From the NCBI GenBank assembly GCA_022264855.1, contig JABYQU010000021.1:494867-558866 (forward strand): 64,000 nucleotides of DNA. Reading direction: 5' to 3'. Under the pieces are notes generated by a model. It saw only the letters and a program-made list of their open reading frames with translations, searched no databases and was not told where the DNA came from. The position numbers and the translations under genes were made by a program. Shown in pieces: positions 2,378-33,003 of this stretch; positions within the stretch are counted from its first letter, which is position 1; each line of letters begins with the position of its first letter. The stretch is from Lenzites betulinus. Taxonomy: Eukaryota; Basidiomycota; Agaricomycetes; Polyporales; Polyporaceae.

Positions 2378-4020
2378 CTATAAGATTTCTGTATTCACGT
2401 CATCGTTTTCCGTCGATCGTCCCAAGGTGTCGAATAGAGATACAGATGCGAACTGCGATTGGGGGACCTCGATTGACGACAGAATAATGCTTGTGTGTTG
2501 ACCCTCGAGCCCTATCTGGCGTAGGTGTAGCAAGAACCTCGCGACTAGAATCACACTCAGGCTGCAAGTACCATCGAGGTCAAACCGGGTTCGGCGCCTA
2601 TACGGCGGCACTTACACTGTCACGATATCTGCGAGTGCGCCGTTGATCTAAGTAGGAGTGGTCTTCAATGTTCTGCCTGATGCGATGTAACAGGACCAAA
2701 CTGACCGCTAGCTGGAGAAATATGATGTCGAATAGGTTGAAGAGAAAGAGCACTCTACATTCATCTGCGTGTTGGCAATAGAATGATCCAGATTGAGTTG
2801 ATACCGGAGTAGGGTACGCACAGAAAGTATATAGAACCTACGGAAACGATCCATCAGTGCGTGAGGTTGACAGCCTCGATCCTGACGAACCGTCCTTGCA
2901 TAGAAGTTTTGTCAATGAAAGTGACGTCCCATGGGCCGTCTGATCAGGACGATAGCTTTTGTATGTCTGCAGCAAGGTTACGACCAGCACCAAGAGATCA
3001 GAAAGGATCGCCGATGCTCTCGCGGCAGTGGCCACTTGTGGTCACGTTCAATGACTCGGATGAGCGCACTTTGTTATACCGAGTGTAGACGGGTACATAC
3101 GGCTACCTCACGCCAGTCAGCGGCCACTCTTCCACACATGGGTGTACTCACATTTGATAAGCACCCAGGGCTATGGTATTGTTGCCTCCACAGCCAACGC
3201 GCGGAGCTTTGTATACAAATACAGATAGATCGATTATCTGGTACTGTCGAGCAACGTACTTCAATCAGGGTAGGAGAATCATACGAAGCTCTCGGACGTA
3301 CCAATTCCGCAGCTGGTAGAACCAAGCCAAAGCATAGTACAATTATGAGCAGCCATATGCGCTTCCCACTAATCGCATACACTCGCAACGCAGAAAACGC
3401 TTCGAGAAAGCCGTCAGTATTTCCTCTTTGATTGATATATTTGGAAAAATGTACCTGCGATTGAAAGCCAGGTGGCCACAAGGAAGAGTGCATCGAGCCA
3501 TAGAATGGCCGTACAACTGATGCTTGTAGGTCAGACCGAGAAGAGTCGTGTGCGGACGGTGTGAAATCTGTACGTGCCTCTACAACGCATAACTTAAGGG
3601 CTTACTCCCTTGCGACCAAATTGCTGTCACTCACCTTTGCAGACTGGCCCGGCCATTGAAGGCGCTCCAATATCATCATGAGTCGGTTTGAGAGAGCAGA
3701 ATAGCGGACAGCGACGTAGAGCACGGCATATCCCCAGAATCCCCCCGTCCAGATCAGGGTAACCTCGCGGCTTGCAGTGAGTAATGTGTCGTACACTAGC
3801 AGAGCTATGACAGTGAAAAGATGGTGTTAGACAGCTGTCAACGGCTGGATACAGCACAGCTTACTAGTAGCCGACATGTGGATGTAGTCCGCAACCGTGC
3901 TGTGCAGGCGAGCATGCGAAATGTCAGTGTGGTTCGCAACGAGAAAGGGGACCGGGACTCCACGCACAGCTGTATATATGACGCCAAATCCGCGCGTAAG
4001 GAACTAGCTGTAGTAGTCAT
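2378..4020 (-). CDS. DUF6533-type seven-helix membrane protein, gene A
   Basis: Thirteen exons in my model: 3968-4020, 3865-3899, 3635-3804, 3578-3579, 3455-3516, 3302-3399, 3152-3258, 3101-3102, 2891-3034, 2822-2837, 2706-2754, 2616-2647, 2378-2561. They sum to 954 nt (317 residues) in one frame from ATG to stop. Family marks: LLVYDTLLTASREVTLIW in helix 1-2, AFSALRVYAISGK after helix 3, SAILSDLLVLVVT, LLCKDG before the helix-6 junction, and ILVARFLLHLRQ at the start of the cytosolic tail. Two exons are only 2 nt long (AG and CC). The intron after the first uses a GC donor (GCACGT). DUF6533 proteins are predicted receptors with unknown ligands; the G-protein link is inference. Exon lengths match gene B closely. 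Confidence 0.85.
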
Positions 4021-4502
4021 CTCTGGCGTGATAAGGAGGGTAAGAAGGAAAAGTGGACGAGGCGGGATACTATAGGGTTGCCGCCTTCACAATACCCTAC
4101 CGGTTTATAACGGACAAGGGGTGCATCGAAGAGAGTCGCGGCTTCTTTGGATCAGTCAAATGTACTGCCTCGAAGGTAGCGCTACGCCTAACCGCAACTT
4201 CTTCGCGGCTCGCATGGATTCTCGGGATGACGTTGTAACTACACGCGGGAGCGGAGTCCTGTTGGTGGACACTATGGTCAGCATTTTATGTATCCGCATA
4301 CACCCGCTACAAGTTGAGATCTCACCCATCCCAATTGTCGAGCCTCATAGCGAGCTACAGCAACTGAATCCCGTCAGCTTATGTAGACGTTGCAAGGGGT
4401 ATATAGAGGACGCTAAACCGATGTACAAGAAATCGTAAGATCTGTCGTTACCAATCATGGAGCAAACAGCGCCGGGGAGCAACGCGCCATCCCACCATCG
4501 TT
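4021..4502. other. intergenic, nothing recognised
   Basis: Upstream flank of gene A and 3' flank of the sorting nexin. Plus-strand open stretches at 4053-4438 have no recognisable domain. Confidence 0.4.
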
Positions 4503-7227
4503 CTACCAAAACTTGCCAAAGACGCTCCCGCGTGCCGGAGATGTCACACCTCCGAGGAGCATCCCGACGCCTTCCTGGATCGCAACACTGACTGGCCGCA
4601 TGGGTGCAGAATCAAACACATGGGGACACGGCTGCGGGAGCGGGGGTGGGTTCAAACGCGGATGCTCTAGCTCGCGCTCGTATATCGATGGTTGGCGCGG
4701 GCCAGTGCGCGCCAGCTCGTCGTACTGCGGTGGGTCGAACGTTCTTCGGGCCGTACGGAGTCGTGTCAATATCTAGCAATGCTTGTCAGCGGAGTCGGGT
4801 CATCCGCGGGGAGTAAGGCGCCCTTGCCTGTTCGTAAAACGCGATTTCCCCATCTAGATGTTCTTTGGCGAGCTCCTGGAAGTCTTCGACTTTCTGAGTG
4901 TGGTACGTGTCCATCTCCGCCATGGTGATGTTGAGCACAGTCTCACAGCGAGCGGCCATATCTTCGTCCTCCTAACGATATCTGGTCAAGACACGTAGGG
5001 AAGGACGCACGTAGTACAGACTTACCGCGCCTTCACGGACCGAATCCTGGTATCGCGATAGTGTGGACGTATGAGTATCTATGACTGGCTAGTCGGCCGC
5101 ACGTTTGAGGTGAGCGGAATGACATGGTGGGCGCGTTGCTATAACACACTCACAGCATATAACGCGGAGGGGTGCGCGACGTTCTTGAACGCTTCGTGTG
5201 TGGCAAGCTGTGTTCGGCGTGCCTAACAACGATAGACGGCAAACAGACCGATACACACATGGTTCCAGAACAACACGGATTAGGACGTACATGACTGTCG
5301 TAAAGATCAGCAACAATCTGCAGCGTTTCCGAGGTTTTCTGCATCGCTTTCGTGAGCTTGAGGCAGCCTATACGGTAAAGATCAACGCAGTGCCGGCAAG
5401 AAGGATATGAGAAACCGTACTGTCACAGTTTTCTCTCCAGCACCACGCCCCTTCCGCGTTGAGATGACCGCGCGTTGAGTGGTCCTGGTCCTCCTCGTCA
5501 TCGTCATCGATCCCTGTGGTCGGTGCCGACGCGAGAGGTTTCGCGGTAATCAGCGACTGCAGTGTATACGACAACAGCCGCTCTGCCTTCGACATCTCTG
5601 TCCGATTTGTTAGCGACAAAGCCCCGTCTACTACATAGAATCACTGACCCATACGCGCCTCGCGTACCCTGCCGAATATGTTACGTAGGCTTTGTATTCC
5701 CTTCCCCACAACACGGGTGTGATTCACGAAACGATCGACCGCATCTGACGCCTCCTCCGCGTCGACGTTAAACGCGGGGTGGTACACGTTCGCATAGAAT
5801 GCGGGGCCCTTGGGCGGTAGCGCGAGATAGTACGGTAGCTGCTTCTTCCACTCCTGTCGCACAACGTTCAGCAGGTACGTGAGATGCGCGTGTGTCTGCT
5901 GGTGGACCCACCGCATCGCTCTCACAACCAAGGAAGAACGTGAGCACTTCTGCGTACCGCGCAACGGGATGCCGGGTGACGCGGTTGATGTACCGCTCTA
6001 GGTCGCCCCGGCGCGCTTCCACGAAGTCATCACTGAACCGCCCTGCGTATTGCTTCTCGGGAAGTGGCGGGAGGGCGATTCCGGGAAGCAACCGCGTGAG
6101 TGCGGTATGCAGTGCCACGAAATGGGAGAACCGTCGGTGCACCGTAATTCGCATCGGGGAGGGAGGCGATGCGTCGTCCTCGTCGTCATTGTCATTGTCC
6201 GGGTCGGACGCGGAACGGGAGTGCGCTAGTGCGTCGAATGAGGTGGTAACGGTATACATGGTGTATGCGCCGGTAAGCATCGAAGCCCGCTTCGACGGTG
6301 AATGGACGAGGACACGAAAAGGGGGCACCTTCGTCTTCCACGACGGTCCCGCCTCCACAAAGTGCCTCTCCGCCTCAGCGATGTGGCCAATGACGCTCTC
6401 GCGCTTCATATCGTCGTCTGTCACGCTGCGACTGTGTTGATGAATGGGATGTGACTCCTGGGCAGTGGGATCCGCAGAGCTGCCTTGCAGGACAAACTCC
6501 TCTGCACCGCTCGTGACAAAGCTCGAGAACCTGTTCAGGCTCTTGCCGCCAAGGAGACTGCGTCGAAAGCTAGGGAACCACTCGCCTGTGGTCTGCGGAA
6601 CGATGGGGAGAGCCTCTGTGCCGCGTACCGGCGAACCTCTTGGAGTGATAGAGTCCCCGGACGCCTCTCTGCGGCTCCGTATGCGGGAGTGCGTGGAGGG
6701 CACCAGCAGACCCTCCGTCTGGGCGAACTCCGCTGTAAACTGCCACTGCATCAATAACAATGGCCCGATGGAAACGAAAGGGCGCGCACGATGTAGTATG
6801 AGCGCGGGATGAGGCCCATCTCGCTCTCCGGCCCTCCCTCATGCGATCCCCGCGCAAGCCTCGCGAGGCTCCAGCCCTCCCCGACGTCCTCGCGCATGAT
6901 CTCGAGCTCATCGCCCGCCTCGATGTGCGTGAGCTCCCGGAACTCGGCCTTGCCCTGGAAGGCGTAAAGCGCGCGCGCCGGCCGCCCATCCTCGTCGTCT
7001 CCCACATCGTCTTCTGCGACGCTATCACCGCCGTCCTGCTCCGGGGTCGGTGCTGGCTCCTCTTCCTCTTCCGTTACATCTTCTGCTATAGCGATCTTGC
7101 CCTTCCCGCTCTCCGTGTGGATACTGTTTAGGCTCAGCCGTGCGCCGCCCTCCGGGCTTGCGAGCGTCCATGCAGCCGATGTGTTGATGCCAGAATCGAA
7201 CTCGAGTGAGCTCGCGGTGTCGGCCAT
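4503..7227 (-). CDS. SH3-PX-BAR sorting nexin (SNX9-like)
   Basis: Nine exons: 6790-7227, 5912-6745, 5649-5853, 5421-5597, 5291-5367, 5154-5222, 5026-5088, 4828-4971, 4503-4772. They give 758 residues in frame. An N-terminal SH3 domain starts with ARALYAFQGKAEF (about residues 84-146). A Ser-rich linker follows, then a PX domain from PPFRVLVHSP to YAEVLTFFLGCES (about 288-424) with RRFSHF, the phosphoinositide-contact RxFS type. The BAR region carries YHPAFNVDAEEA, KLTKAMQKTSETLQ, RYQDSVREGA and KVEDFQELAKEHLDGEI. The order fits SNX9/18-type membrane-remodelling proteins that link endocytic tubules to actin. The last intron (4773-4827) has a GC donor (GCAAGG), required by frame. The C-terminal exon is Pro-rich. 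Confidence 0.92.
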
Positions 7228-7606
7228 AGCGATGTGTGGCTGGTGGTCGTCAGAACGGTAGGGGAGGTTGCCGCGGGCGTTGAGTAAGCCCTCAGGCCTT
7301 AGGCCTCAATATTCAATCTTTAGCCAGATCAAGTGACACTGGCTCGTAAACTTCACGACGTTAGATCATAAATGGAGGTTGCTTGTCAGCGTCATAGGAT
7401 GCGCGAGGCGTGAAGCTTGAAGGAAGAGAGCTCGTCGTTGGGACCGATTCGCATCAGCGTCAGCTACAGGCGCCTTTTCACCTTTTCATCTACCACCACG
7501 ACCGACTCTCAGCGATGCTGCTGCAAAAGAATGTACATTCTACAACTACAAGCTTTCTATCTGTGTATGTCTCCTCCTACTCTTCGCACAACAAATGCCG
7601 AGCTGG
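7228..7606. other. short intergenic region
   Basis: Upstream flank of the sorting nexin and 3' flank of the aldo/keto reductase. Nothing further recognised. Confidence 0.5.
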
Positions 7607-8741
7607 TCAGTCGAGGTCGGGGAAGCCAATGTTTCCCCAACCCGTCCAGTCAGGCTTGCACACCCGGATGTGGGTCTCCTTCTCGATGGACGCAAGCTCC
7701 TTGATATCCTCCTCGGTCAAGTCGATGATCTTCGCATTAGCGTCGATCCGGCTCGGGGTGACCGACTTCGGGATAACTGGGACACAGCATACAAGTGAGC
7801 AATCATACTAGGTGCGGGTATGTGCAGGGTGGCGCACCCGTAATGTCCGGCCTGTTGGCATGGAAAGAAATGAGGATGTTCGTAGGGTCGACGCTGTATT
7901 TCTGCGCGATCTTCTGCACAACGGGGTTGGTGCGCAGGGGAGCCGTGTCGGAACCCAGAGGCGAGTAGGCGGTTATGGCAATGCCGTGCTTCCTGCTCTC
8001 CTCTACAATGTCTTCCTGCGTGCAAGCACTACAGAATTGAACGTCAGGGGATATAGTACCCTGTGAGAACACAAACACTTACGGGTGAGACTCGATCTGG
8101 TTCACTGCCGGGACGACCTCCGCAGCCGCAAGCAGTCTCTTGAGATAGGTCACAGAGAAGTTGGACACGCCGATGGCCTTGACCTTGTCCGGGTTCGCCT
8201 TGTAGACGCGCTCCATCTCCTTCCAGGTGTCGAGCCAGTCGTACGCCTTGTCCGCCTTGCCGTCCTTGGTCATCGGGGCCGGCCAGTGCATCAGCCAGAG
8301 GTCGAGGTATGGCGTGTCGAGCAGCTTGAGCGACCGGTCGAGCGAGCCCGCGACGTCTCGCTGGTCCGAGTTGTTCAGCTTCGTCGTGAGGAAGATTTCC
8401 TCGCGGGGCACGCCCGAGTCCTTGATACCCAGCCCGACTTCCTTCTCGTTACCTGGTAGTCGTGCATGTCTGTAAGTCGCCGATCGGCCGCACTCGATCT
8501 CGCCGCGCGATGGCACGTACCATATGCAGTGGCCGTGTCGATGTGCCTGTAGCCGTTCTTGAGCGCATGGGCGACTGCCTTCTCGACTTCGCCAGGCTGC
8601 GACCTCCATGTCCCTGTGTGCCTTGTGAGCAAACTCAAAGGTCTTTGCGGCCGACTTCGTTCGCTGGGAGCTATACGTACCCAATCCGAGAGTAGGCATC
8701 TCCGCACCCGTGTTCAATTTCACGCTCTTTGATGCAGTCAT
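7607..8741 (-). CDS. aldo/keto reductase
   Basis: Five exons: 8681-8741, 8521-8613, 8083-8452, 7838-8028, 7607-7776; 294 residues. The active-site tetrad is visible: Asp and Tyr in HIDTATAYG, Lys in FLTTKL, His in LMHWPAP. The NADP(H) 2'-phosphate motif IPKSVTPSRI is intact. IGVSNF and ITAYSPLGS are family signatures. It should be a cytosolic NADPH-dependent carbonyl reductase; the closest functional groups are glycerol/xylose-reductase-like enzymes, but the substrate cannot be read from sequence. The reading frame is complete and ends with WTGWGNIGFPDLD, a typical C-terminus for fungal members. Confidence 0.95.
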
Positions 8742-9188
8742 GTTAGTTTCTGTGTTTTCTGTTGAACGTTCTTGAGTTGAGGGTTGGTTTCAGAGGGGGG
8801 ATTGGGATCGATGAGAGGGACATGTACTTATACCCGCGAGCGGGGTGTCGGGCGTCCGTTGGTGGCGGCCGATGACGACAACGTCTTCAGGCACTCCCAT
8901 GACTGCTCGAAAGCTGCTGACATATCAGCCACGTTGTTTTAATGTTGAACGTGATGTTGTCACTCGGGATAAGTAGTTGGTTAGTCGATTGCATTCGTAG
9001 CGACCCTATGGGGAAACATCTCTGCCGCCGGGCAAAAGTTGTCGGCGGTCGAGAATCGAAACAGGATATTAGATACAAGATTAGGCATGCGATAACAAAT
9101 AAACAGGCAAATGGTCCATCCGCCACAGTAGATTGAGCGGGCAACAAAAAATGCAACACGTCGAGAGTCTGTCCAATGATTAACACGA
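8742..9188. other. intergenic, nothing recognised
   Basis: Holds the upstream flank of the aldo/keto reductase and the 3' flank of the membrane-protein gene. No convincing coding stretch. Confidence 0.5.
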
Positions 9189-10587
9189 TCACCTTCGCAT
9201 ACGGGCCGCCCACGGAGGGGGTGCAAGACCAGTATGTCCGTCCGACGGGCTACTATGCGGTGTGTAATCCACAGGGGCGTCGGGCATCGGCCGCGTAGAC
9301 ATCCTCAACCCAGGCGGCATTGTCAACTCGGGACTCCCAGGTACCATACGCGCCGTCGCAATGGGCATCGAGATCGCGAGTTCTCGCGCCATGCGCTCTT
9401 TTGAGTCGGTCGTGGGGGAGTACGCAGCGTTGTCGCGCATGACCGACTCTGTCGAGGTAAACACGACCTCTGTCGCGCCTGGGCCTACGCACAAATCGGT
9501 CGTCAGATAGCCGTACATAGAAGGAAGAGGAGGATACCCACTGCTGTTTTGCCGATGTAACCAACTGCTCACAGGACTCGCCGATATTTGCAACATTCGC
9601 AGGTTCTTCCGTGCGCGCCGCCGCCGCCTGATACAGAACCAAACCGCGGCTGCCAGCCCGAAGAGAAATATCACGCCGCCGAGAACAGATCCCACGATGA
9701 CGGCATCGATATGCGAAGAGTTGTGCTGAGGAGCCGACGTGGACGGGCTTGGACTGCAGACCCACAAGTAATCAAGGACGTATGGCGTGCCTGTCGTGGA
9801 TATAGTGATTGTGAGATTATGCTGTCCGGGATGTAAGGGGGGCGAGTGGAAGAATTGTTGGTTGGGGATGCACATTGCACTCGCAGGCAGGGTGAAATCG
9901 AATGCTGGCCGACCGTCGATTGAATATGATGCGTTGGGCGGCGGAGAACTGTTGTTACTTTGTTGCACCGTACCGAACACTACGATGCTCGTCCCTTGGG
10001 GAACATCATGAGTCGCTCAGATGAAAGGGGAACTTGTTCCTAGGGAGACTCACCTGAGAAATCCATGTCAACGGTCGATCCATTGACAGTCGTAGAATGT
10101 GAAGTCAAGCTCTCCCCGTTGGGGTCTCCAGACGTCAAAACCCAGCCAGGACCATATTTAAGCACTCCATCGTTTTCGTTTATGACCTGGCACTCCCGAG
10201 GATCGGGAGCAATGGAATGCATTGCAGCGCCGCAATCTTCGTGGCTTTGTCCCTGTCCGGACCCGGTGGCACCAGAGCTGTTTCCACCCGGGCTGCCTGA
10301 ACCAGGCTGACCTGTCGCTGTCAGCAGCAATCCTTGCGGTCCACGACAGATACGCACATTCCCCGGCCCTTTAGTTCCTCCATTGGATCCTCCTCCCTTA
10401 TTCCCGCCTCCTGAACCGCCTCCCCCCGAATTACCAGGCGAGTCTTGATTATCATCACCACTGGAGCTGAAGTTCAGTACATGCGTCTTCCACATACGCA
10501 GACTTAGCTCGGCACATACTTGCTATGATGCGTGGATGGTCCATTGAAAGGAACCAAGGTGGCGTTCTGCGAAGAATCTACACGATA
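9189..10587 (-). CDS. one-pass membrane protein with jelly-roll-like ectodomain (N-terminus unresolved)
   Basis: Three exons join in frame: 10520-10587, 10054-10466, 9189-9994. The second carries a Gly/Ser-rich spacer followed by LKYGPGWVLTSG and STTVNGSTVDMDFSG. The third continues TSIVVFGTV, a cysteine pair, VLDYLWVC, a short Ser-rich stalk, a membrane helix (IDAVIVGSVLGGVIFLFGL) and a basic anchor (CIRRRRRARK). A cytosolic tail of about 120 residues follows. It is built like the left-edge gene and is probably a cell-surface protein. Upstream exons encoding the signal peptide should lie between about 10590 and 10830, but no ATG-led exon could be chosen with confidence. Confidence 0.75.
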
Positions 10588-10589
10588 CT

Positions 10590-12532: not shown

Positions 12533-14299
12533 CTACGAGTGCGCGCTCAATACCTCGTAGTACGCAGCGTACTCCTCCGGCGACATCGCGTCTTGGTGCT
12601 CTTCCGTGACCTGCGAGAGTGGTATTGACTCCCCGTTCACTGGGTGCATCTCATCAGCATCGCATGGAAGTCGGCAAACGGGCTGCACAACTCACCAGAA
12701 ACCATCGGGTCGTCATCCATCGCCATACCGTTCGCTGACGGAAGCATCTCAGCCTCAATGCCGTTCGTGTATGCCGTCGCCGTCAGCTCGACCATGTCAT
12801 CGACGCGCGGCATCTTCGGGGTGCTGTTTCCGGTCCCGATATCGTCGCGTGAACGCGAGCGTTTTCGGTATTCGTTCAGCGAGTCGAGGTACTCGATCGA
12901 GGGCTTTACGTCCTCTTCCCCACCGAACCCGTTGAGTCCTGGCGTGGCTACGCCGGACGCTGGAGTGGATGCCGCCAGAGAGGCGTAATACTGGTCGTAG
13001 TCTGTGTTTCATCAGGGTCAACGAAGGGGGGTACTGTGATGCTTGGGACGTACAATCTGCCTCATCGGCCTGTACTACTACAGGCTTCACATCCTCTCCA
13101 TTAGGGATGAGCGGCGGCCCCTGGACCGCCCCCAGACCCCTTAGAATAGCATCGTTCGAGCTCGGGAGCCTGTTGGGGTCGACCCCCGATGTCACTTCAG
13201 CCCGGGCGCTCTCCTTGACACCCAAAGCCGTGAGATCGCCCGATATTGTGCTCTGCAAGTGCCACAGCGGTAGCGCGTTCTGCTGTCGTTTCGCGGCGGC
13301 TTCGCGGTCGCGCTCGAGACGCGCCGTCTCCTCGTCTTTGTCCACCGATAGAACGACACCGATCGTATCACCTTGACGACCGTCCCCTGAAGAACCAGCG
13401 ATTTTGAGTCCGCCATCGCGAGAGGCAGCCTTCGCACGCTCCTGCTCGGCAAGATGGTTCTTGATCCAGACGGCCACATCGAACCTATCGGAAGCGGGAT
13501 GAACGGAGGAGGATAAAGACGTTGCGAAACGACGTACGCAGGGAGCACCATGTCCTCCGTCTTGCGCAGGCCCTCGAGGATGAACCGCATCTGGCGATTG
13601 AACCGCTGCATGCGATCCTGGCTCCCGACCACGTTCTCCGCGTTCTCGTTGTCTATGAGCTCGGCACTACAGATATCGCAGTCGAAGGTGTGCTGCACAG
13701 GATTGAAGAGGCGGTCGACCTCGAGTGGCTGGAAGGACTTGTGGCATTGCGGACATATGTAGCCTTTGCTGTCAAGCTCGTTCCGGAGACCCTGGTCGAT
13801 GATCCGCCGCATCTCGGCCATGCGCCACTTGACGACATTACAGAAGTTCTGGTAGTCGATGTAGAAGTATTGACGGCCAACGGAGCGCTGTGCGCCCTCT
13901 TTGAGCTCGTTCTGGCGGTATCTTCAAGTGGCAACACGACGGTTGGAGGACCAACTCGTGAAAAAGAATATAGATACGTACATGCGAACGAGCCTGTGGC
14001 CCTCGAGCGTCGCCATGATCTTGTTCAGCTCCTTGAGCTGCAAGCCCATCCGGCCGGCCAAATCGTCATCCTTTAGACTGTGGCGCGTGAGCGATCAAGC
14101 GTATATGATATTCCCGCACAATCTCCCACCCCCACACTTTTTACAGCTTCATATCGCTCGAGCAAGCGTATACTTACACTGGATGACGGACGAGCTGATC
14201 CATGACAACAGTGAACCTGGGTTCGTAGAATGCCCTTGAAACATGTTGCACTAGAAGACGGAGAGTCTCTTGCTCGTCCTTCAACAGGCCTGCCGCCAT
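12533..14299 (-). CDS. TFA1: transcription initiation factor TFIIE subunit alpha
   Basis: Six exons: 14178-14299, 13982-14077, 13538-13921, 13054-13484, 12696-13001, 12533-12639; 481 residues. The winged-helix N-terminus is recognisable (AFYEPRFTVVMDQLV, then LKDDDLAGRMGLQLKELNK and RQNELKEGAQR). The four-Cys zinc ribbon follows at about residues 126-165 (CPQC, then CDIC). Acidic and charged regions occupy the C-terminal half. TFIIE alpha recruits TFIIH to the RNA polymerase II pre-initiation complex in the nucleus. The length is close to fungal relatives. The start is set by the ATG of the exon encoding MAAGLLKDEQETLRLL; all junctions keep frame. Confidence 0.95.
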
Positions 14300-16732: not shown

Positions 16733-18531
16733 TTACACCCACGAAGTCGCCTCCATGACCTGCTTCGCCCCACGCAAATCCGCGTCCGAGTCTGGACCTT
16801 CATCGTCCATCTCTTCACCTGCCACGCTCCCCTTCTCCTCCATGTGATCCATCATATCATCATCTGATTCGTGCGACCCGACGGTTACTGCGCCGCCCAT
16901 CGTGTCGAGAATTCCTGGCCGGAAGCACAACGACGTCATCGGAGAGGATGAGAACCTCGTGAGGTCGATCTCCGAAGAGCTCTCCCCCGGCCAGGCTTTC
17001 TCTTCAAGCTGGGCGCGCTGGTCCCGGAGGTTGAGGAGGAAACGCGCCATGAGAATCGCGCTCAGTCTGCAGGATTAGACGGTGGAATTAGTTCTGATAC
17101 GAGATACGGCGAATGAAGGCGAAGGACGGGACCGTACGTTACAATCAGGTCGTTCAGTAGATTCGTGCCCTGCGGTTCGGTAATGAGAATTTGACAGCCA
17201 TAGACTGTATGAAACCTTGTGTGAGCTTACTGTTGTTGTAATGTACACGATTGCACCCAAGTTGAGGGCGGAGATTGCCCTGGAAGGGTTGAGCACTTAT
17301 CATAGCTGTTTTGGCCTCAATGCTTACAGGAAGTATACAGTTCCTGGGGTGATAGTCTCAGTCTTGTCTCAATTGGATCACGTATAGAGCTCGGTATTAA
17401 TACGTACCGTCACGCAAAATTAACGCAGAGTAGTCGGCGCTGAGCTTTACTCTCCTAGTGAGTGAGTAGACTCGGAACGTCTTCATCCACGTTAAAACAA
17501 CGACGAGACCATCTGAGAGGATGGAGATTATACGCGTCGCTATCGATACTGCAGTCGTATTGGGCAAGGGTTAGCAAGGCCCAATTCATTCAAACGATCG
17601 TCAGGGGACGCTAACGCACGACTGCAACATGTCAGTGTTAGTAGATGCATTTCATCGTAATATAAAGCACGTCACGAACGTTTTGTATGCCTGCGCAGTC
17701 ATCGCAACTGGCGCAGACTGACATGTATAGAGCCTGGTGGGTATGATGTAGGCCGCTGACGCAGCGCGGAAGAACTGATACATGATTCAACACACAAACA
17801 ATCTCACCGCGATGGCGGGAGGCCAGGAGAAATACGAACCAAGTTTGCGAACGCGGGGAATACGCCCATGAGCATGATGAGCGCGAGCAGCCGAATGTCA
17901 CGATTCCAGAGAGCATACACCCGGATAGCCGCGATAGCTGGGCAGTATTAGTATGGCATCTTGTCAGGGAGAGCTACATGGACTTACAAGAGAGTACGGT
18001 GATCAATGCGGAAGTAGTCACAGCTTGAAACCACAATATCGTGTTACAACTGGACATGGTCAGATAGCGGTTCGCCAGACTGACTCCACGCATGCTCACC
18101 TCTACAAGAGGGATCAGTATTGTGGATGTAACGCGTAGAGGGAATACTCACTGCAGGATCGCGAATGGGGTATAAACCTATTATAGCAAAGATACGGTTG
18201 AGGAGCATGAAATATCGTGTCATGACGAAGAGCGCGGTGGCCCCCGACGGATCGCGTTTCCAGATTTGCTGCACCTCGAGCCGGATGGTGATGATATGCT
18301 CGTAAAATGCCAGTGCTGATGATGTCGCATGATCAGTAAGGCTCCTAAAATTCCTCCACACAGCAACGAGAAGCCAGGGAAGGGTACGTACTGGTTGCCG
18401 CGCACGAGATGAAGAACGATCTGTAATTCCATAGTTAGGCTCGGCAATCTGCATCTACATGTCTGAACCACTCACAGATCTGCATCCCGTAACACTGGCC
18501 ACAGGTGTGCCAGAGGATCTCCCTGCGACAT
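16733..18531 (-). CDS. DUF6533-type seven-helix membrane protein, gene B
   Basis: Thirteen exons in my model: 18476-18531, 18392-18420, 18152-18315, 18100-18101, 17988-18049, 17840-17937, 17680-17774, 17620-17621, 17408-17548, 17328-17343, 17231-17279, 17138-17169, 16733-17066. They sum to 1080 nt (359 residues) in one frame. Marks: TTLAFYEHIITIRLEVQQIW, ATALFVMTRYF, AIAAIRVYALWNR, ISILSDGLVVVLTWMKT, LILRDGTVYFL, AILMARFLLNLRDQ, then an acidic cytosolic tail. Two exons are 2 nt (AG and TC). The intron before the second carries a textbook branch site (TACTAACAC). Exon lengths 62, 98, 141 and 16 are identical to those of genes C and D. A putative receptor with unknown ligand. Confidence 0.88.
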
Positions 18532-20675: not shown

Positions 20676-21592
20676 ATGTCTTCAGCACTCGCAATACGGC
20701 CGCGTGGGAGGCGCCCAGAACAGCTGAGAGACTGTTCTATAGTGTACGAAGGTTTGGATAGAGTAGATGGCTCCGCGCGATTTAGCTTTGGTGAGTGTCT
20801 CGAAGTCACCTAGGCACGCTTGCAAACAGACTTATATGCGCGTCCATAGGGTTCACAAGCTGCCTCAGCTCAGTCTCTGGACCGATAGAAGTGCGCCCGA
20901 CGCTTGAGAACCCCTCACAAGCCACGCTCGACATCCAAATTCGGCCGCTCGCTGCCATCGCAGGCACCGACTCGAAAGCACTCTCTGCGACCCTCAAATC
21001 CATCTTCTCCCCCGCGTTGCTCCTCTCACGTCATCCGCGAACCCTTGTTCAAATTGTTGGCCAGGCACTGTGCGGCACCGACAGTGGAAACGGCCTTGGC
21101 AGCGCCGGACGCGGTTGGAATGCGAGTCTCACGGCGAGCCTCATCAATGCGACTACAGCTGCATTCGTGAATGCTGGTTCGGTTCCTATGAAGGGGGTCG
21201 TATGTGCTGTTGCTATCGGCCGTCTTCAATCCGAGTCGGAAGGTCCGATCCTTATACTCGACCCGGAGGAAACAGAACTACCGCGCCTTGCAGGAAGCGG
21301 ATGCTTCGCCTTTCTGTTCTCTGCGGCATTATCTAGCTCTGCACCATTGTCTCCGAACTTCCCTCCATGCTCTTTGCTCTGGACGAATTACACTACTGCA
21401 GCACCGTTTGATGTGGCGCAACTTTCGAAGGCTCGCGAGTTGGCGGAGGAGGGCGCGCGACAGGTGTGGCTGAAGTTGAAGGAAAGTGTGGGATCGTTGG
21501 ATATGTCCGCCGTGTCCAAGGTCGAAGTCAAACCACAACTTGAGGATCACCCGGGCGCGATGGAGGTGGACGACGAAAAAGTCGAGATATGA
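20676..21592 (+). CDS. RRP46: exosome complex component RRP46 (RNase PH-like)
   Basis: Two exons, 20676-20790 and 20850-21592, give 285 residues. The RNase PH fold is recognised from the order DRVDGSARFSFG, SCLSSVSGPIEVRPTLENPS, IQIRPLAAIAGT, LLLSRHPRTLVQIVGQAL, NATTAAFVNAGSVPMKGVV and LILDPEETEL. It is a structural ring subunit of the RNA exosome (nuclear and cytoplasmic 3'-5' RNA decay). Eukaryotic members are normally catalytically inactive. The C-terminal helix is followed by an acidic tail (MEVDDEKVEI). The ATG at 20676 is the first in frame and gives a normal N-terminal length. Confidence 0.92.
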
Positions 21593-25364: not shown

Positions 25365-26324
25365 TCTCCTCTCTTGCTTCATATCCACACGTCTCCGTAA
25401 TGAATCGGTCTGGAGGACTTAGCGCTCATTAATCAACCGTTACTATACATACTCACGTCTTCGTGCATCCTTCGCTCGGTTTACGGACTAATCATTCGCT
25501 TTGATTTGATTTCAATGGACACTGTGTGGACATTCAAAAAAATTGTATACAGATGTAGTGTATCAATGCATCGTAGTCACTAGCACGCAACAGCAGTCAT
25601 CTCACGTACTCAGGGGATATATAGGAAGCACTGACTCCCCGTTTGTAGTCCCTTGCCTTTTCCGGGAGAACACCACAGCACAGCCACTGGCTCGCAACGG
25701 GCCAGCGCGCTAAGTTCAACTCATATCCGAGTGCTGACCATGACATTAATTAGCTTTCCTTGTACTCGGAGTACATCCGGCTGGTGTGTTACTGAACAGT
25801 GGCGTAATGCCGCGTCTGATTCGCATCATCAAGGTGGGTTCCGGCTCTCTGGGGAGTCAAGTGCACTGATATGACTCACGTCCAGCCAACAGCAGCGGGC
25901 GGCGCTTTCCGATACGAGGACCCGTTTACTCGCAACCCGATCGGCCTGCTGGGTCCGACCGGTGTCGCTGAGGTATCGCCGTCGTGCGCGTAGCTTTCGA
26001 ACCCTACGCTTCACCGCCGAGTGCACGACTGAATAGGCAGCGTCTTCTCGCATTGAACGCTGCATGGCACGCAGTGCTGCAAGGTTCAAACTGTGGTCGC
26101 GACAGTGGCTTCCATCGCGAGGCTGAGCATTGAACAGACTTCGTCTAGCGCTCAGGCTGAGTGACTCACTGCCGCCTGACCGCAGCGGCGCCTCCGAAGC
26201 CACGCCTGCGTACGGCTGCTGTTGTGATACATAAAGCCCCAACATTGTCCCCGGACGCCATCCCGCTATCCACACCCCACAAAACAACCACTCAATTTCA
26301 ACGGATTTCAGTCGCCTCACAAGT
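25365..26324. other. intergenic, nothing recognised
   Basis: Contains the 3' flank of the transporter. A minus-strand open stretch (25829-26320) of 163 codons has no recognisable domain and may be chance. Confidence 0.4.
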
Positions 26325-27281
26325 ATGTCGTTGCGGTTGGATCACCCCACCCACCACCTCACTAGTCACTTTCTAGATACTTCAATCACTCCCGCCGCAA
26401 CCATTCCACCCTCCCTCTCGCAGCTCTCTCCATCGAGCCAGCAAGATGTCCCGAACCACCATGACTCAGCTTTGTGGCAAATTCCAGCTACACAAATGAA
26501 GTCTCACAGCTTCGAACCAAAATCCGCGCCTCTAGGTGACTCGGAAAGCATGGTACGTTGCACAAACAATCTTGTTGTGCTCTCTCTCACGCATATCTAC
26601 CAGACCATCTCTCGACGATCAACAGCAGGCGGCATGCTTACTGGATCGGCCGACGACGGAAAGAGCAACGGCCTCTCCCAGTCTCCTGCACCATCTGGCG
26701 GGGGAGGCCATAGTACGTCAGGCATGCAGTCATCCCCGATCGTCGCAGCCCTTGTGGTGGTCGCAATTGTCCTACTAGGGTCAATACTCGCTTGGTGGAT
26801 TATTTCGCGCATCCGGCGCAGTCGAAGAGGACGCCCGAGTGCGCCCCTCAAAGAAGCGTGCGACTGCAAACCAGTCCTCTCAGACGTCATTCTCGGTCAC
26901 CCATCTGCTACGAAGGATTTATATCATGCTCAATGGGAGAAGCTAACAGTAAGTGTCCCTCCTCTCCGTCTACGTCATGTGCTCACTCTCTTGCAGCCCA
27001 TCTCAGCGGATTGCGCATCCGAAGATGATCGCAGGCGTTGGCAATCCTTGTCCGAGGACTCCCCCGACGACATCTCCCTTTCGACTTCTTCTCAATCGTA
27101 CAAGTCTAAGACGGCGCCCTTTTCTTTGTTCTCAAGAGCCTCCTCCCCTGCGACCACTCTTACCCCTGACATGGAACCCGTCGAGGTCAAGGTGACGATA
27201 TTCATCGCGATGCCTTCCCAGCATGCGTCGCAGTTTCCTGGGGAACTTTGTATCGGTGTTTCACAGTCCCCATTATTGTGA
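26325..27281 (+). CDS. small one-pass membrane protein with IAMP tail motif
   Basis: Likely exons 26325-26552, 26604-26948 and 26997-27281. Both putative introns (51 bp and 48 bp) are multiples of three without stops, so the unspliced frame is also open. One membrane helix (PIVAALVVVAIVLLGSILAWW) is followed by a basic anchor (ISRIRRSRRGR). The tail ends in MEPVEVKVTIFIAMPSQHA and ELCIGVSQ. This matches the tail of the protein at 19.5 kb in order and spacing, so the two are paralogues. The true start is uncertain: the ATG at 26325 gives a Ser/Pro-rich N-terminus, and an in-frame ATG near 26632 would give a short Gly/Ser-rich one like the paralogue. Confidence 0.65.
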   Translation: MSLRLDHPTHHLTSHFLDTSITPAATIPPSLSQLSPSSQQDVPNHHDSALWQIPATQMKSHSFEPKSAPLGDSESMVRCTNNLVVLSLTHIYQTISRRSTAGGMLTGSADDGKSNGLSQSPAPSGGGGHSTSGMQSSPIVAALVVVAIVLLGSILAWWIISRIRRSRRGRPSAPLKEACDCKPVLSDVILGHPSATKDLYHAQWEKLTVSVPPLRLRHVLTLLQPISADCASEDDRRRWQSLSEDSPDDISLSTSSQSYKSKTAPFSLFSRASSPATTLTPDMEPVEVKVTIFIAMPSQHASQFPGELCIGVSQSPLL

Positions 27282-28293
27282 TCGTTCGAACTCGAGCACC
27301 TTTTCATCTATCTCATACAGCGTACTTTTAATGATTCCGTCGTATCTATGGCCTCCACTTTCATTTCCGCCCATGCGAGACATGCCCGACATGCGCGTCC
27401 CCGGACCACTGTGACTGGCCCCTTCGCCACCGGCGCAAGTACATCTGTGCGCGTGTTTGTATTCTGGAATAGTCACGACGTCTGATACCGCAGCAGCATG
27501 CGGAAACGGGCGAACCCGCATGGCCACATGTCAGATTCTTTATGTGCTAGTCCTTCGAAGTTCCCTACAAAGTCCGGACTGGTCCGACCTGACCGGACAT
27601 GCGGCACCGGCCGCGGCGCCCATTGCGCGGCTATTGTAGTATCACGGTCCTGCCGCTTCCCATTACGAAAATATCAACATCAGAAGCACGTATGGTTTGC
27701 GATGCCTCCTGATGCCCCACCAGCGAGCCATCTTCGCACATTCGAATTTTTAGGCGGCTTGCACGGAGTAGTATGGAACTTCAATGGAAGCCTCGGGGAG
27801 CAAAGGCACGTACTTGTGGTATTAATACTAATCAGTACACCCCCGCCAAGGTCCATCAAACTCGTTGCACAGCAGCCCGAGGGTCTCAGGAGGTCTCAGG
27901 CCGGAGTACAGCAGAATACAGCAGGCACAGCAGCTGAGTGCGACCGTTGCACGCCTTTTCCCCGCTGGCATCATCCGAGTGAATGGCTCCGGCGGGCGTG
28001 CACAATTTCGCTCAAAAAGTACGCTTCGTGCTTCTCCCCGGAAACTCACCCCATGGGGTGGAGCTCTAGAACCCTGCGCAATGCGGTGGGCGCGCAGACT
28101 CAAATGCTAAGGCCCGGAAAGAAAGCGATCCCGCGATAACATCCCTCCGCGAGACCGGAATTGCGCTTCGAACGCGAACAACTTGAGGCTTGGGACGACA
28201 CCCAGTGCAGGGAATCGACATATAATAGGCACTAGTCCATGTTGAAGCTGCTGCCCCTGATCAGCCCCCAACGCCCCCCGACACGCAGCATCC
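27282..28293. other. intergenic, promoter of receptor gene C
   Basis: A 213-codon open stretch at 27498-28139 is rich in Arg/Cys and shows no domain; it was rejected as a gene. A TATA-like block (catataatagg) lies at about 28217-28227, some 70 bp before the start of gene C. Confidence 0.45.
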
Positions 28294-30191
28294 ATGTCTG
28301 ACGGTGCGGATGTGGCACAGGCGATTGCGGATTCTTACAGCCGATTGTGAGTCCGTATCTGACTACGTACCGCAGTTTGTTTCTAACTTTCTCGCGCCAG
28401 ATGGATTGAAAACTATTGCATCGTCGCGTCCTCAGGTCGGTTTCCACAGAACTTGGCCGATCACAATACCCGCTGGCTCAATTCACGCTCTTTCAAACAG
28501 CACTCCTCTTCGCGGATTCGCTCACCACGTTGACAGACGAGGTGCAACGAATATGGCATAGAGAGTTTTCGGGCGCAACAGTGGTGTTCCTTTTGACGCG
28601 TTACGTCGCGGTGGCGGAGAGAATTGTTCTCGTCGCGAGTGTATTTTTGCCGACAGTGCAAGACAAAGTGAGTGCTAAACGTCTTCTCGCGGTTTCCCGG
28701 ACTCTGATGAATACCACTCTCGCCTACAAACGCTTTTTGTCTTGTGCTGTAGAGGTTCGTCCAAGTTTACTATATCACTTCATAGCGTTGACCTGATAGG
28801 ATGTGGGCTGCAGCTGCGTTCCAATACTGCGACTGGACGATGTCCTCACGGACATCACTTACTTGATGTTTGGTGGTGAGCCCGTGTTGCAGTTTCAAGA
28901 AACAATCGAAACAGCTGACACAATACTGTAAGTGTTCATGACCCTCCGCGCGCGAGGTATCTGGGGCCGCGGTTGGATACCGATTGCGATACTAGCACTT
29001 CTCGCCCCCGTCCGTTCCGCTATTACGATAGTAAGGTTCTATTCCCATCCGTACATCGGTCCGTTGTGGCTGACGGCTGACGTCCCACAGTACGCACAGA
29101 CGCACTATACTCCGATTGCATTCGGCGCCCCTTTGTACGGATGCGGAGCTGCGTTCAACCTCACCATCAGCCAGTTGCGGGGGTAAGTCCCATGTTAACC
29201 CTCTCTGATTCAACGACGCTGATAGTTTGTGTTGTTGGGGATGCCCGTAGATGTGAGTGTGTCCCGTCTGATAGCGCGTGAGCATACCTAACATTGCCCG
29301 CGTAGTGGGAATCGCTTCGCGGGCCGCCGCTTTATCAATCGATACCTTTGTGCTCGTTCTGACCTGGATACGCACGCTTGGCATCAAGAGGGAGTCAAGC
29401 AGACTTGGGATGCACACCCCGCTCGTCACACTCCTGCTTCGCGATGGTGAGTGGTACTATCTATTCAGACCGGCCCTTGCTAGTAAACGCACACTGACAT
29501 TTTAAAAGGGACGATGTACTTTCTGTGAGCACGCATGGAGTACACCTCCTGAAGCCCTACAGACGTTGACAATCCCGAGCGTAGGGTCATCTTATTTGTC
29601 CAAGTTTTCAGTATTATCGCGAGCATTGTAAGCTCCAGGTTTGTATGACACGAATTGTGGTGCTAAGTGATTTTTTTCTTAGGTCGGAAATGTGGGCATG
29701 AAGGGATGAGCCACTATCGTAGTGTACTGACATATTCATCTTCATAGGCCTTCGTTCTCTGGGACATCTGGCCGTACTTCGACCAAGTGTATGCTCTCAC
29801 TTCCACAGATGTGCTCACTTACACCGCTGACCATTATTCCAGACTCACCGTGATCTTCTCGTGCCGATTCATGCTCAGCCTCCGCGGAGTGTACCTCAGC
29901 AACCACAGCACGGAGTCGGAGTCCGCGGAGAACAGTGACGAATACGGCCACGGGACGTACTTCACTAGCATGCGGTTCTCCTCGAGCATCGTCGGAAACA
30001 TGGGCGCCCCGCTCGACACGTTTGGCGTAGCCATGAAGGACTATAGCTATACGATCACCGAAACTATAGGTGACGACGAGCCGCCAGAGCTGTCGCGCGA
30101 CCCGATCGTGGCGGGGCTACACCATCCGGCAGGCATCGAGCTTCCGGAAACCCCCACGGCTGCCCATCAATATGCTAGGGAATCAGCCTAG
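28294..30191 (+). CDS. DUF6533-type seven-helix membrane protein, gene C
   Basis: Fourteen exons: 28294-28346, 28401-28435, 28501-28667, 28753-28754, 28814-28875, 28933-29030, 29091-29182, 29251-29252, 29306-29446, 29509-29524, 29585-29627, 29683-29691, 29748-29788, 29843-30191. They sum to 1110 nt (369 residues) in one frame from ATG to stop. Marks: ENYCIVASSALLFADSL, GATVVFLLTRYVAVAERIV, LRARGIWGRGW, GIASRAAALSIDTFVLVLTW, VTLLLRDGTMYFL and VIFSCRFMLSLRGVYL. Two exons are 2 nt (AG, AT) and one is 9 nt (Val-Gly-Asn). It is a close tandem paralogue of gene D, sharing the C-terminal ELPETP motif. Receptor role inferred from the family; ligand unknown. Confidence 0.9.
28753..28754 (+). other. 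2-nt exon, site 1, gene C
   Basis: Sequence context ctgtAG|AG|GTtcgt. Upstream intron 85 bp with GTGAGT donor; downstream intron 59 bp with CTGAT branch and CAG acceptor. AG plus the first base of the next exon makes the Ser codon of Ser-Cys. Without these two bases the rest of the gene is out of frame. Equivalent exons: 3578-3579 (A), 18100-18101 (B), 31547-31548 (D), all AG. Confidence 0.8.
29251..29252 (+). other. 2-nt exon, site 2, gene C
   Basis: Context ccgtAG|AT|GTgagt. Flanking introns are 68 and 53 bp. The two bases bridge a GGA codon and a Leu codon before GIASRAA. Equivalent exons: 3101-3102 CC (A), 17620-17621 TC (B), 32017-32018 GA (D). Frame is lost without them in every gene. 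Confidence 0.75.
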
Positions 30192-31086
30192 GGAGATCGT
30201 ACTGCGATGTAGGATATATTCTAGGCGTGGCGTTTGATATGCAAATGGGCATCCCGTGGGAGCATTTGTACTCACTTCGTGAGGCCGATTGTCAATAGGG
30301 GGCGTGTTTAGTGCCCTAGGGCCTACGGTAAGACCTTGAGGAACGTGCTGTGTCGCTCTAAAGCATGGTGAGCATCATTTCTGGGTTTACAGCCTTGAAG
30401 CGTAAAGCCGGATAGCAGTGTAACCACGTGCAAAACTCTATGCACCGCATGATACGATGTAGTGGTGGCTCATTGCGATGACCTTCACCGATGTCTGACT
30501 GCTTTTGGCGTAGACCACCACTGCACTCACGAGTAGGCTCCAGCAATCTCCGCATTTACATACGAGCTGATAAAGGCCCGGCTTTCAGGTACTCCCGCCT
30601 TGGCCGCGTTGACACCGCCGATGGTGGTGAAAGTTCTATTAATTGTGATCAGCTGTTCGTTGCCACCTGAAAAAATGGAGACTAACATCTTACAGCAAAC
30701 GTCAGTGGGACTGCTGCGACCTGTCGAAGAAGATACCGGAAAGGAACGTGGAGGATCGCCATGCTGATCCCCGCGGAGGCCCAGAAGCGAGCCCGAAGCG
30801 CTGCTTACACAGCTCCCCTAAGTTACGCGAATCACGTCTGCGCGAGCCAGAACGGATGCGGTTAGCTCGTTCCCCTTGCACTCCTTACCCCCGCTCGCTC
30901 CGGCAGAGCCGCTGGATGCACGATACACAGTGCACCGATCGGACTCCGCCCTTATAATAGTCACTCCTTCGGACCCGGTACCAAACCGCACTCTACCAAG
31001 CCCACGACGCCCCGGCCTCGCCGCAGCCCTGCGCTACGTAGCCTGCCTCCCCCCTCGTACGGGGACTCGGAGCCCCCCTCGTTGCT
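30192..31086. other. intergenic between tandem receptor genes C and D
   Basis: No domain recognised. A TATA-like block (cttataatag) at about 30951-30960 lies roughly 130 bp before the start of gene D. Confidence 0.45.
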
Positions 31087-33003
31087 ATGTCTTCTGACGA
31101 CGAGGACGTCACGCAGCAGATCTTCGATGCCTACAGCCGAATGTGCGTTGTGCCGGGCACCATCGCCGCGTTGTCCCTCGCCATCTGAGACCCACTAACT
31201 GCCCGCCACAGACTAGTCGAAAATTACTGCATCATCGCGTCCTCGGGTGCGTGTTGCGGCTTTCAGTTGTTGACGGGTGTAGGTCATCGGTGCTGTGCCG
31301 CTAACGTCGGATCCACAACACAGTCCTCCTCTTCGCAGACACGCTTATGACCCTCACGCGTGAAGTCCAACGGATATGGCAGCGACGGTTCACCGGGGCG
31401 ACCGCCGTGTTCTTGATCACTCGGTATGTCGCCGTAGCCGAGCGGATTGTGTTGCTCGTCAGTTTGTTTCTCCCAACGGTCGAAGACGCGGTAAGTGGTA
31501 AGTCCATTGAATGTTTCCCTGACTAATGCGTGTATATCCTTCATAGAGGTGAGTGTATGGTGGTTCGGAGGCACTGAGAGGGTCTGATAGTCCCTCTAGC
31601 TGCGTCCCCGTTCTGCGCCTCGACGACACACTTACGGACATCAGCTACCTTATGTTTGGAGGTATGTTTGTTGACTCCATACAAACACTCGGAGCGCTCA
31701 CTCTGTAAGAAAGTGTTCTTAATCCTCCGAGCCCGAGGGATATGGGGAAGAGGATGGGGGCCTCTCATCATCCTTTCCCTGCTCACACCCATTAGACCTA
31801 TCCTTAGTATTGTGAGCATTCTTCATCGACTGCGGGGACTACACACGTCTGAACCTTGCGTCCAGTATAATCAGGTGCATTACACGCCCCTAGCATTCGG
31901 GCCACCTCTGTATGGCTGTGGGGCGATCATCAACAATAATTTATACACAGAGTAAGTACCAAACTCTCCTGTTCCCCGACGTGCACTAGTTTCTGACTCT
32001 CGTCCAACTACCACAGGAGTGAGTCCTCCTCGTATAGGGGGCCCACCTGGACGTTCATCGACTCATGCCGTTATAGTGGGAATCGCATCACGGGCTGCCG
32101 GACTGGCGTTAGACGCGACCGTTCTCGTCCTTACCTGGGCTCGGACCATCGGCATGAAGCGCGAATCGCGCCGGCTGGGGTTGCATACCCCGCTGGTCAC
32201 ACTGCTACTTCGTGATGGTGAGTGGCCATTAAGCAGACCAGAAGTACGCAACGCTTACCTGTAGTAGGAACCCTGTACTTCTTGTAAGTCCCCATTGAGA
32301 GCAGCACTGGGAGAATAGCTCAACGAGTGGCGTGCTAGAATAATCCTCATTATTCAGATCTGTGGCATCGTTTCGGTGTCGGTGAGTGCAGCGTCAAGAC
32401 TACAGTATATCGCTGCGGCTTACAAACGGTTCTGACGCAGGTCGGGAACGTCAGTATCGTCCGTTGTTATCTCACATGCAGATCGCTCACCAGCTGCGCA
32501 GTCTTTCGTACTCTGGGATGTCTGGCCATATTTCGACCAAGTGTATGCCGCCGCGCCTCGCCTGATGCGCAGCCCTACTAACCAGCATCATGCACAGCTT
32601 CACCGTCATTTTCTCCTGCCGATTCATGCTCGACCTCCGCGGCGTCTACCTCGTCGATCCGCTCCGCACGCACCCCGGAGAGGGAGACGACCTCTACGAC
32701 GAGACGAACCCCCCGATCTCCGGGCTCCTCTTCTCCAGGAGCATCGTCGGGAACATGGGCGCGCCACTCGACACATTCGGGACCAGCACGAAGACGGCGC
32801 ACTCGCGCGCGCCCAGCGGCGCGAGCACCCTCGGCGCGTCGAGCGGGTGGACGCGCTGGAGCGCAGGCGAGAGCGAGGAGACGGAGGTGGGAACTGCGGA
32901 GGAGGAAGAACTCGAGGCCGCGTCGCCGGACCCGCTCTCCGTGGGCTTGTACCATCCTGTGGACGTCGAGCTACCGGAGACGCCGTCGACCGCGCACGTA
33001 TGA
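31087..33003 (+). CDS. DUF6533-type seven-helix membrane protein, gene D
   Basis: Fourteen exons: 31087-31142, 31212-31246, 31324-31490, 31547-31548, 31600-31661, 31714-31811, 31866-31951, 32017-32018, 32077-32217, 32268-32283, 32339-32381, 32441-32449, 32502-32542, 32598-33003; 1164 nt, 387 residues, one frame. Exon lengths 35, 167, 2, 62, 98, 2, 141, 16, 43, 9, 41 are identical to gene C. Marks: ENYCIIASSVLLFADTL, GATAVFLITRYVAVAERIV, GIASRAAGLALDATVLVLTW, LLLRDGTLYFL, VLWDVWPYFDQV and VIFSCRFMLDLRGVYL. The cytosolic tail is longer and more acidic than in gene C and ends near VELPETPSTAHV. Two exons are 2 nt (AG, GA). Confidence 0.9.

Follow-up and report, generated by a model that had tools for sequence, protein, structure and literature searches.

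The window analyzed here is a stretch of 64,000 nucleotides (nt) on contig C23 of the 37.4-Mb genome of the polypore Lenzites betulinus. It contains four genes, A to D, that encode proteins of the DUF6533 family (Pfam PF20151), which has been described as a region of fungal membrane proteins specific to basidiomycetes and has at least one member, SNB1, with seven predicted helices (PMC10949477). The PF20151 scores are 43.6 bits for A, 44.2 for C, 44 for D, and 37 for B by exon match, all above the curated cut-off of 24.1. An earlier note on this DNA observed that the four reading frames close only when two exons of exactly 2 nt are included, and spliced models confirm this. It is very probable that a 2-nt exon is included constitutively at both sites, lying between two ordinary GT-AG introns that are removed one after the other. 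Exons of this size are among the smallest known. The genes and their tiny exons are as follows (window positions and strand, with the lengths of the two flanking introns).

2378..4020, minus strand: gene A, DUF6533 membrane-type protein; model of 13 exons; coding sequence (CDS) 939 or 954 nt; PF20151 43.6 bits
3578..3579, minus strand: gene A, site-1 2-nt exon AG; introns 55 + 61 nt; second donor GC
3101..3102, minus strand: gene A, site-2 2-nt exon CC; introns 49 + 66 nt
16733..18531, minus strand: gene B, DUF6533 protein; CDS 1080 nt; PF20151 exon match
18100..18101, minus strand: gene B, site-1 2-nt exon AG; introns 50 + 50 nt
17620..17621, minus strand: gene B, site-2 2-nt exon TC; introns 58 + 71 nt; called by the family profile
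28294..30191, plus strand: gene C, DUF6533 protein; 14 exons; CDS 1110 nt
28753..28754, plus strand: gene C, site-1 2-nt exon AG; introns 85 + 59 nt
29251..29252, plus strand: gene C, site-2 2-nt exon AT; introns 68 + 53 nt
31087..33003, plus strand: gene D, DUF6533 protein; 14 exons; CDS 1164 nt
31547..31548, plus strand: gene D, site-1 2-nt exon AG; introns 56 + 51 nt
32017..32018, plus strand: gene D, site-2 2-nt exon GA; introns 65 + 58 nt
32441..32449, plus strand: gene D, 9-nt exon, in frame, at a third tiny-exon position

How widespread are these exons? A profile search of the genome found 81 PF20151 exon matches, 16 of which lie in a tandem-type cluster at about 49 to 191 kb of contig C19. 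Every one of the 81 loci was modelled with a spliced profile aligner written for this analysis, which admits exons of any length from 1 nt and GT/GC-AG introns of 38 to 170 nt, using a family profile of 243 columns built in two rounds. Most statistics refer to the 68 genes with a profile score above 100, and those on intron length to the 67 genes with a score of at least 110. The 13 loci left out of the 68-gene set are weak, partial, or differently built, and hold five further site-1 2-nt exons.

In the 81 loci, the aligner placed 115 exons of 2 nt, 62 at profile column 54 (site 1) and 53 at column 139 (site 2), and none outside these two sites. The upstream intron is in phase 0 at site 1 and in phase 2 at site 2, which bears out the claim that the exons keep to two fixed positions with respect to the helices. 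The fair denominator for these counts is the well-modelled set, in which site 1 is present in 57 of 68 genes, site 2 in 53 of 68, and both in 49. The 49 genes with both exons are spread over 24 contigs, with a median pairwise identity of 25% and a minimum of 13%. When protein D was the sole seed, the aligner returned both tiny exons in A, C, and D and the first alone in B, where a 15-nt exon was used at site 2; the family profile gave the 2-nt exon there. The result for D with its own seed is circular, because that seed was spliced by hand.

Within the window, the CDS lengths given in the earlier note (954, 1080, 1110, and 1164 nt for A to D) were reproduced with open frames. For gene A, a 939-nt model is as open as the 954-nt one; in gene B, dropping either tiny exon leads to premature stops. 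Exons of 62 and 16 nt are indeed common to all four genes, and the exon after site 2 measures 144, 141, 141, and 141 nt in A, B, C, and D. The 98-nt exon said to be shared by all four was recovered in A, C, and D; in B it stands by hand choice only, the aligner using exons of 130 and 54 nt and not 98 and 86. The tiny exons are flanked by AG and GT, with a single GC (gene A, site 1), and by half-introns of 49 to 85 nt, as described. The range of 108 to 146 nt given for the two half-introns and exon joined together becomes 102 to 146 nt, since site 1 of gene B measures 50 + 2 + 50.

At site 1, the 2-nt exon, which is AG in 35 of 57 genes, forms a codon with the first base of the next exon, just ahead of a conserved cysteine (profile column 55, in 64 of 68 genes). 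The exon that follows is 62 nt long in 54 of the 57. At site 2, the tiny exon ends one codon and begins the next, near the start of a hydrophobic segment at profile columns 142 to 156. Does the protein need these bases? Skipping the 2-nt exon introduces a stop within the aligned region in 52 of the 56 genes counted at site 1 and in 42 of 52 at site 2. The gene L013 was excluded from these counts because of a stop within its own model; the other 67 of the 68 models are free of stops. Tiny exons of other sizes also occur at the two sites, namely 5 nt at site 1 (two genes) and 8 nt (five) and 11 nt (four) at site 2, and all of them leave a remainder of 2 when divided by 3. The claim that the pair is conserved across the family, each exon being needed for the frame, is thus strongly supported, far beyond the four window genes.

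The lengths of the surrounding introns fit the same picture. The half-introns (n = 218) have a median of 58.5 nt, and the other introns of the same genes (n = 434) a median of 60 nt. Joined together (n = 109), they span 102 to 197 nt with a median of 121, while just 5 of the 434 other introns reach 100 nt or more. When exons of less than 3 nt were forbidden, the score fell in all 61 genes that use one, by a median of 13.3 nats (range, 3.8 to 29.3). Because the model favors introns near 57 nt, the run was repeated with flat intron lengths up to 240 nt, without a branch-point term and with the profile blanked around both sites. A 2-nt exon was still chosen in 52 of 68 genes, at the same two columns only, with half-introns of 47 to 98 nt.

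Could the AG-NN-GT pattern arise by chance? The joined introns were shuffled by dinucleotides in 50 rounds, keeping their first 6 and last 3 bases. With both halves required to be 45 to 110 nt, AG-NN-GT occurs in 56 of 57 real introns at site 1 (6.1 after shuffling) and in 53 of 53 at site 2 (5.0 after shuffling). These introns were preselected for a 2-nt exon, so it is the comparison of one spacing with another that is informative and not the value near 100%. Among other spacings, 0 nt occurs 36 times at site 1 and 6 times at site 2, 6 nt occurs 32 and 28 times, and every other length between 1 and 12 nt occurs 1 to 14 times. The high counts at 0 and 6 nt are taken to be due to letters that overlap the AG exon and donors of the GTNNGT type.

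The splice signals inside the joined introns were also compared. The branch motif CTRAY is found in 66 of 110 upstream halves, 43 of 110 downstream halves, and 221 of 443 other introns, with mononucleotide shuffles leading one to expect 17.8, 17.3, and 68.4, respectively. In the run without branch-point scoring, the counts are 44 of 70, 20 of 70, and 218 of 454. A single intron would be expected to show the reverse, with branch motifs mainly in the downstream part. Donor sites show compensation as well: across the 110 exons, the match to AG on the exon side is negatively correlated with the match on the intron side (rho = -0.41, p = 9e-6; site 1 alone, rho = -0.40, p = 0.002), the p-values being indicative only, as paralogs are not independent. 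This trade-off suggests that U1 treats the two bases as the exonic part of a donor site.

Not all members of the family carry both exons, and the exceptions are instructive. Eleven of the 68 genes are without a 2-nt exon at site 1. In four of them (L040, L050, L054, and L055, all of one clade) the upstream intron is missing, L058 of the same clade is without either intron, and L065 and L068 have neither as well. In L008 it is the downstream intron that is missing: the gene reads GACAAG, then a 53-nt intron, then AACTGTGCC, so that the two bases and the base preceding the cysteine codon stand together in one exon (intron, then AACTGT). L008 falls within the main clade, on a branch with a support of 89/86 (not starred). 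In the intronless copies, a threonine codon (ACA or ACC) stands ahead of TGT in L065 and L068, and AGC ahead of TGC in L058. All eight of these genes hold the equivalent bases in a continuous frame. They can be read as natural complementary DNA, whose frame is the one that the 2-nt exons restore elsewhere. The other site-1 exceptions are L066, with a 5-nt exon, L031, in which AG-AG-GT is present and was unchosen by the aligner, and L046, to which we return below.

Fifteen of the 68 genes are without a 2-nt exon at site 2. Four have an exon of 11 nt and three of 8 nt, and in L069 and L019 the length points to an 8-nt exon fused to the next. L060 has no intron there, L058 has 35 nt replacing the tiny exon, L065 and L068 have one intron, and in L041 and L009 no tiny exon was selected by the aligner. 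As the clade of L069, L019, and L060 is the one that carries the 8-nt exon, these three genes speak for the 8-nt form of site 2 only.

Is the frame beyond these exons under selection? In 10 of 10 close paralog pairs, the ratio of nonsynonymous to synonymous change (dN/dS) beyond site 2 is 0.05 to 0.64 (0.07 for C and D), and values below 1 there indicate that translation in frame past both sites is under constraint. Between the sites the ratio is 0.12 to 1.40, and is not computable for C and D. When the 68 proteins were placed on a maximum-likelihood tree, 8 changes sufficed for the four possible states (both exons, the site-1 exon alone, the site-2 exon alone, or none), compared with 18.2 for shuffled states; the site-2-only label is not clustered by itself (4 changes, compared with 3.9). 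The 49 genes with both exons fall into a group of 55 with weak support at its basal fork (65/78), and site 1 is also present in the separate C43/C65 clade. Read as an unrooted tree, it supports only the claim that the double state is old relative to most of the family, with no date attached. To judge from the sequences, the double-intron state is old in the family, being common to paralogs at about 25% identity.

A few further observations concern the proteins and the rest of the window. A second cysteine often precedes site 2 (45 rows at column 125 and 20 at column 126), and the cysteine pair presumably recalls the extracellular disulfide of G-protein-coupled receptors. Hydropathy of the family profile, which omits the N terminus, gives about six segments. 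The 9-nt exon of gene D has a readable counterpart in gene C at 29684 to 29692, and an exon of this length occurs at profile columns 206 to 209 in 10 aligner models, which gives some members of the family a third position for tiny exons. In the last third of gene C (29585 to 29642), the aligner gives 58 nt and the hand model 43 + 9 nt, and the profile leaves both standing. Three neighboring open reading frames putatively encode an aldo-keto reductase (8079 to 8741, minus strand), a TFIIE-alpha-like protein (13192 to 13821, minus strand), and a MICOS apolipoprotein-O-like protein (45197 to 45790, plus strand). A sequence search of PDB with protein D gave no match up to E = 1. Scans with the A2 peptides brought up no relative in the prokaryote and viral contigs, in line with the description of the domain as specific to basidiomycetes (PMC10949477).

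How might a spliceosome deal with an exon of two nucleotides? Such an exon would be unrecognizable across itself, which points to intron definition and sequential removal. Each intron would be defined on its own and the two removed consecutively, the removal of the first leaving an ordinary exon-intron junction for the second. The double-intron state is presumably kept because the tiny exon holds needed coding bases and the frame would break if one splice site were lost. The positions, the need for the frame, the statistics on splice sites and lengths, the conservation, and the intron-lacking copies come from the sequence; from these we infer inclusion in messenger RNA (mRNA), the splicing order, and constitutive use.

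What else could account for the two sites? The earlier note proposed that inclusion acts as an expression switch, with skipping shifting the frame and turning the receptor off. The frequent stops that follow skipping (52 of 56 and 42 of 52) are in keeping with this, and a regulated microexon has been reported for Xlr2 of Trichoderma (PMC11121469). Any gene with an exon needed for its frame would look alike, however, and no sequence feature that was examined indicates regulation. The two exons are retained in 49 paralogs that have diverged widely, and some paralogs do without the site-1 introns. The proposal therefore found no support, and we regard a switch as unlikely. Retention in so many diverged paralogs, the constrained frame, and the bases present in the site-1 intron-lacking copies are as would be expected of constitutive exons. 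A single long intron at each site is less probable still, and very unlikely in our view. It would be cut at a noncanonical 3' (or 5') position that leaves two bases behind, for example just before the final AG. This would need just one splicing event per site and would yield an identical mRNA for 35 of the 57 site-1 exons. It would also require a cut without AG at the intron end, and it leaves unexplained the fixed AG-NN-GT, the doubled length, the upstream branch motifs, the donor compensation, and the 5-, 8-, and 11-nt exons of other paralogs. The variant in which a single long intron uses another, in-frame junction was rejected by the constrained alignments, the intron lengths, and the site-1 intron-lacking paralogs.

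Two further explanations would dispense with a retained exon altogether. Stwintrons, which are known in fungi, are nested introns, and recursive splicing would use a zero-length AG|GT ratchet point; in either case nothing remains in the mRNA. The pre-mRNA around an AG exon (AGAG|GT) does also contain AG|GT, as in 36 of 57 site-1 introns, but at site 2 this is so in only 6 of 53, and the site-1 intron-lacking copies keep the two bases. With nothing retained the frame would be shifted by two. As a number of bases equal to 2 modulo 3 is needed at both sites, the frame rejects both stwintrons and a zero-length recursive site, and we consider them highly improbable. Finally, the genes might be decayed, yielding no full spliced protein, with the tiny exons a modelling artefact. 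Stops do occur in L013's own model and in the site-2 reading of L009, and these two genes (C19:68898 and C21:588028) possibly are decaying. Against decay of the family at large stand dN/dS below 1 beyond site 2 in all 10 pairs, the cysteine after site 1 in 64 of 68 genes, the 62-nt exon after site 1 in 54 of 57, and 67 of 68 models free of stops; this explanation is the least credible of all, with next to no probability.

A constitutive 2-nt exon between two introns is the reading that we prefer, and a number of points weigh against it. Some concern how the models were made. The seeds are circular, in that D and two others were spliced by hand or guessed, with Ser-Cys at site 1 included, and two 2-nt exons were already present in each of the 21 models behind the first profile. 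In the blanked run, 16 of 68 genes chose no 2-nt exon, and the margins were narrow (median, 5.1 nats; minimum, 0.0). A single genome supplied all of the genes, which have a common ancestry, so the counts of 2-nt exons are not independent events. Other points concern the signals. The AG exon of 35 of the 57 site-1 genes matches the last two letters of the second intron, and a single intron cut two bases before that AG would therefore give an identical mRNA. Downstream half-introns are poorer in branch motifs than ordinary introns, donor compensation within site 2 is not significant (p = 0.49), and the model score itself included the donor's intron side. Still others concern individual genes. 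L046 (C19:61452) has no AG-NN-GT at site 1, only AG|GT, and the aligner gives it a 20-nt exon, while its sister gene, C19:49226, retains AG|AG|GT; L046 may have lost the tiny exon naturally, or it may be a gene that is dying. At site 2, AG-GA-GT is present and unchosen in L041, preceded by a 60-nt intron and followed by a frame that fits the family, and AG-TG-GT is unchosen in L009, with a stop soon after. An intron-lacking copy for the 2-nt form of site 2 was not found among the 68 genes. Between the sites, dN/dS is 1.40 in one of the 10 pairs, and upstream of site 1 it exceeds 1 in one pair, which contains L013, the model with a stop.

Ultrasmall exons as such have precedents. The earlier note's remark that single-nucleotide exons are reported in plants is right for plants and incomplete: a 1-nt exon in CYP621A of Fusarium was published in February 2026 in a paper that presents itself as the first such report from a fungal gene and that cites exons of 2 to 5 bp in Arabidopsis, Drosophila, and humans (PMC12940212). 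That case resembles the present one in being a fungal, frame-needed exon bordered by AG and GT between two short introns, with a joined length about twice that of a normal intron and a relative without introns as support (PMC12940212). It differs in that the exon is 1 nt long, occurs once per gene, and was followed through 20 orthologs of one subfamily with SRA reads (PMC12940212), whereas here the exons are of 2 nt, come two per gene in 49 diverged paralogs of one genome, and are known from genome sequence alone. For Arabidopsis APC11, which also has an ultrasmall constitutive exon, the authors propose intron definition and sequential removal; unlike the DUF6533 genes, it is a single-copy plant gene with a 1-nt exon, and was tested with reporter constructs (PMC4674806). 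The P450 genes of Phanerochaete chrysosporium are likewise a basidiomycete gene family with tiny exons and frequent introns of 45 to 55 bp, though the shortest exon described is 6 bp and microexons extend beyond one P450 family (PMC1184071). A note on the sago palm genome mentions one annotated 2-bp exon in an uncharacterized gene (PMC8760474). A paper on HLA-F that matched the wording "2-nt exon" was set aside, as the words there mean something else (PMC7725694). The only other match to that wording was a paper on a rare-disease database.

Other known arrangements involve closely spaced introns. Stwintrons, as described, share with the DUF6533 sites two short fungal introns removed in consecutive steps; they differ in being nested, the inner intron splitting a splice element of the outer one, whereas here two coding bases must remain between. 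Near intron pairs also comprise two intron positions a few nucleotides apart, but their premise, as stated, is that coexistence in one gene is very unlikely (PMC2891723). Here the two apparently coexist, 2 nt apart, at two sites in 49 genes. Within the family, the nearest comparison is SNB1 (snowball) of Agaricomycetes, a DUF6533 protein with seven helices predicted there (PMC10949477). The VLWD exon of C and D resembles the published guide RNA site of snb1, with 12 bases identical to D by eye; both mentions of exons in that paper have to do with the guide RNA and not with tiny exons (PMC10949477). By title or the start of the abstract, none of the matches listed by the literature search reports 2-nt exons shared across a gene family, most subscription journals lying outside that search. 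The ultrasmall exon is therefore a known kind, and the paired, family-wide 2-nt form is new as far as the literature search shows.

What would such exons mean for the family? We lean toward the view that most DUF6533 receptors of mushroom-forming fungi have, as an ancient and fixed feature, a pair of 2-nt exons whose flanking introns are spliced separately. If so, the pair has persisted through the DUF6533 radiation, and introns 2 nt apart can coexist stably for a very long time, which would contradict a working rule of intron phylogenetics, namely that introns so close together are mutually exclusive. Given confirmation by transcripts, a single fungal genome would hold more than 100 exons of 2 nt at two homologous positions. 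This would be a natural series for learning how a spliceosome copes with exons too small for it to see, in which the paralogs are sequence variants of the same geometry and the copies lacking one or both introns are built-in controls. There would be practical consequences as well. Gene-calling and read-mapping programs that impose a minimum exon length would put DUF6533 proteins out of frame, and public fungal models of these genes would be broken at the two sites as a rule. snb1, a member of this family, is needed for mushroom development (PMC10949477), and in many cases the models of DUF6533 membrane proteins may be faulty beyond roughly their first quarter.

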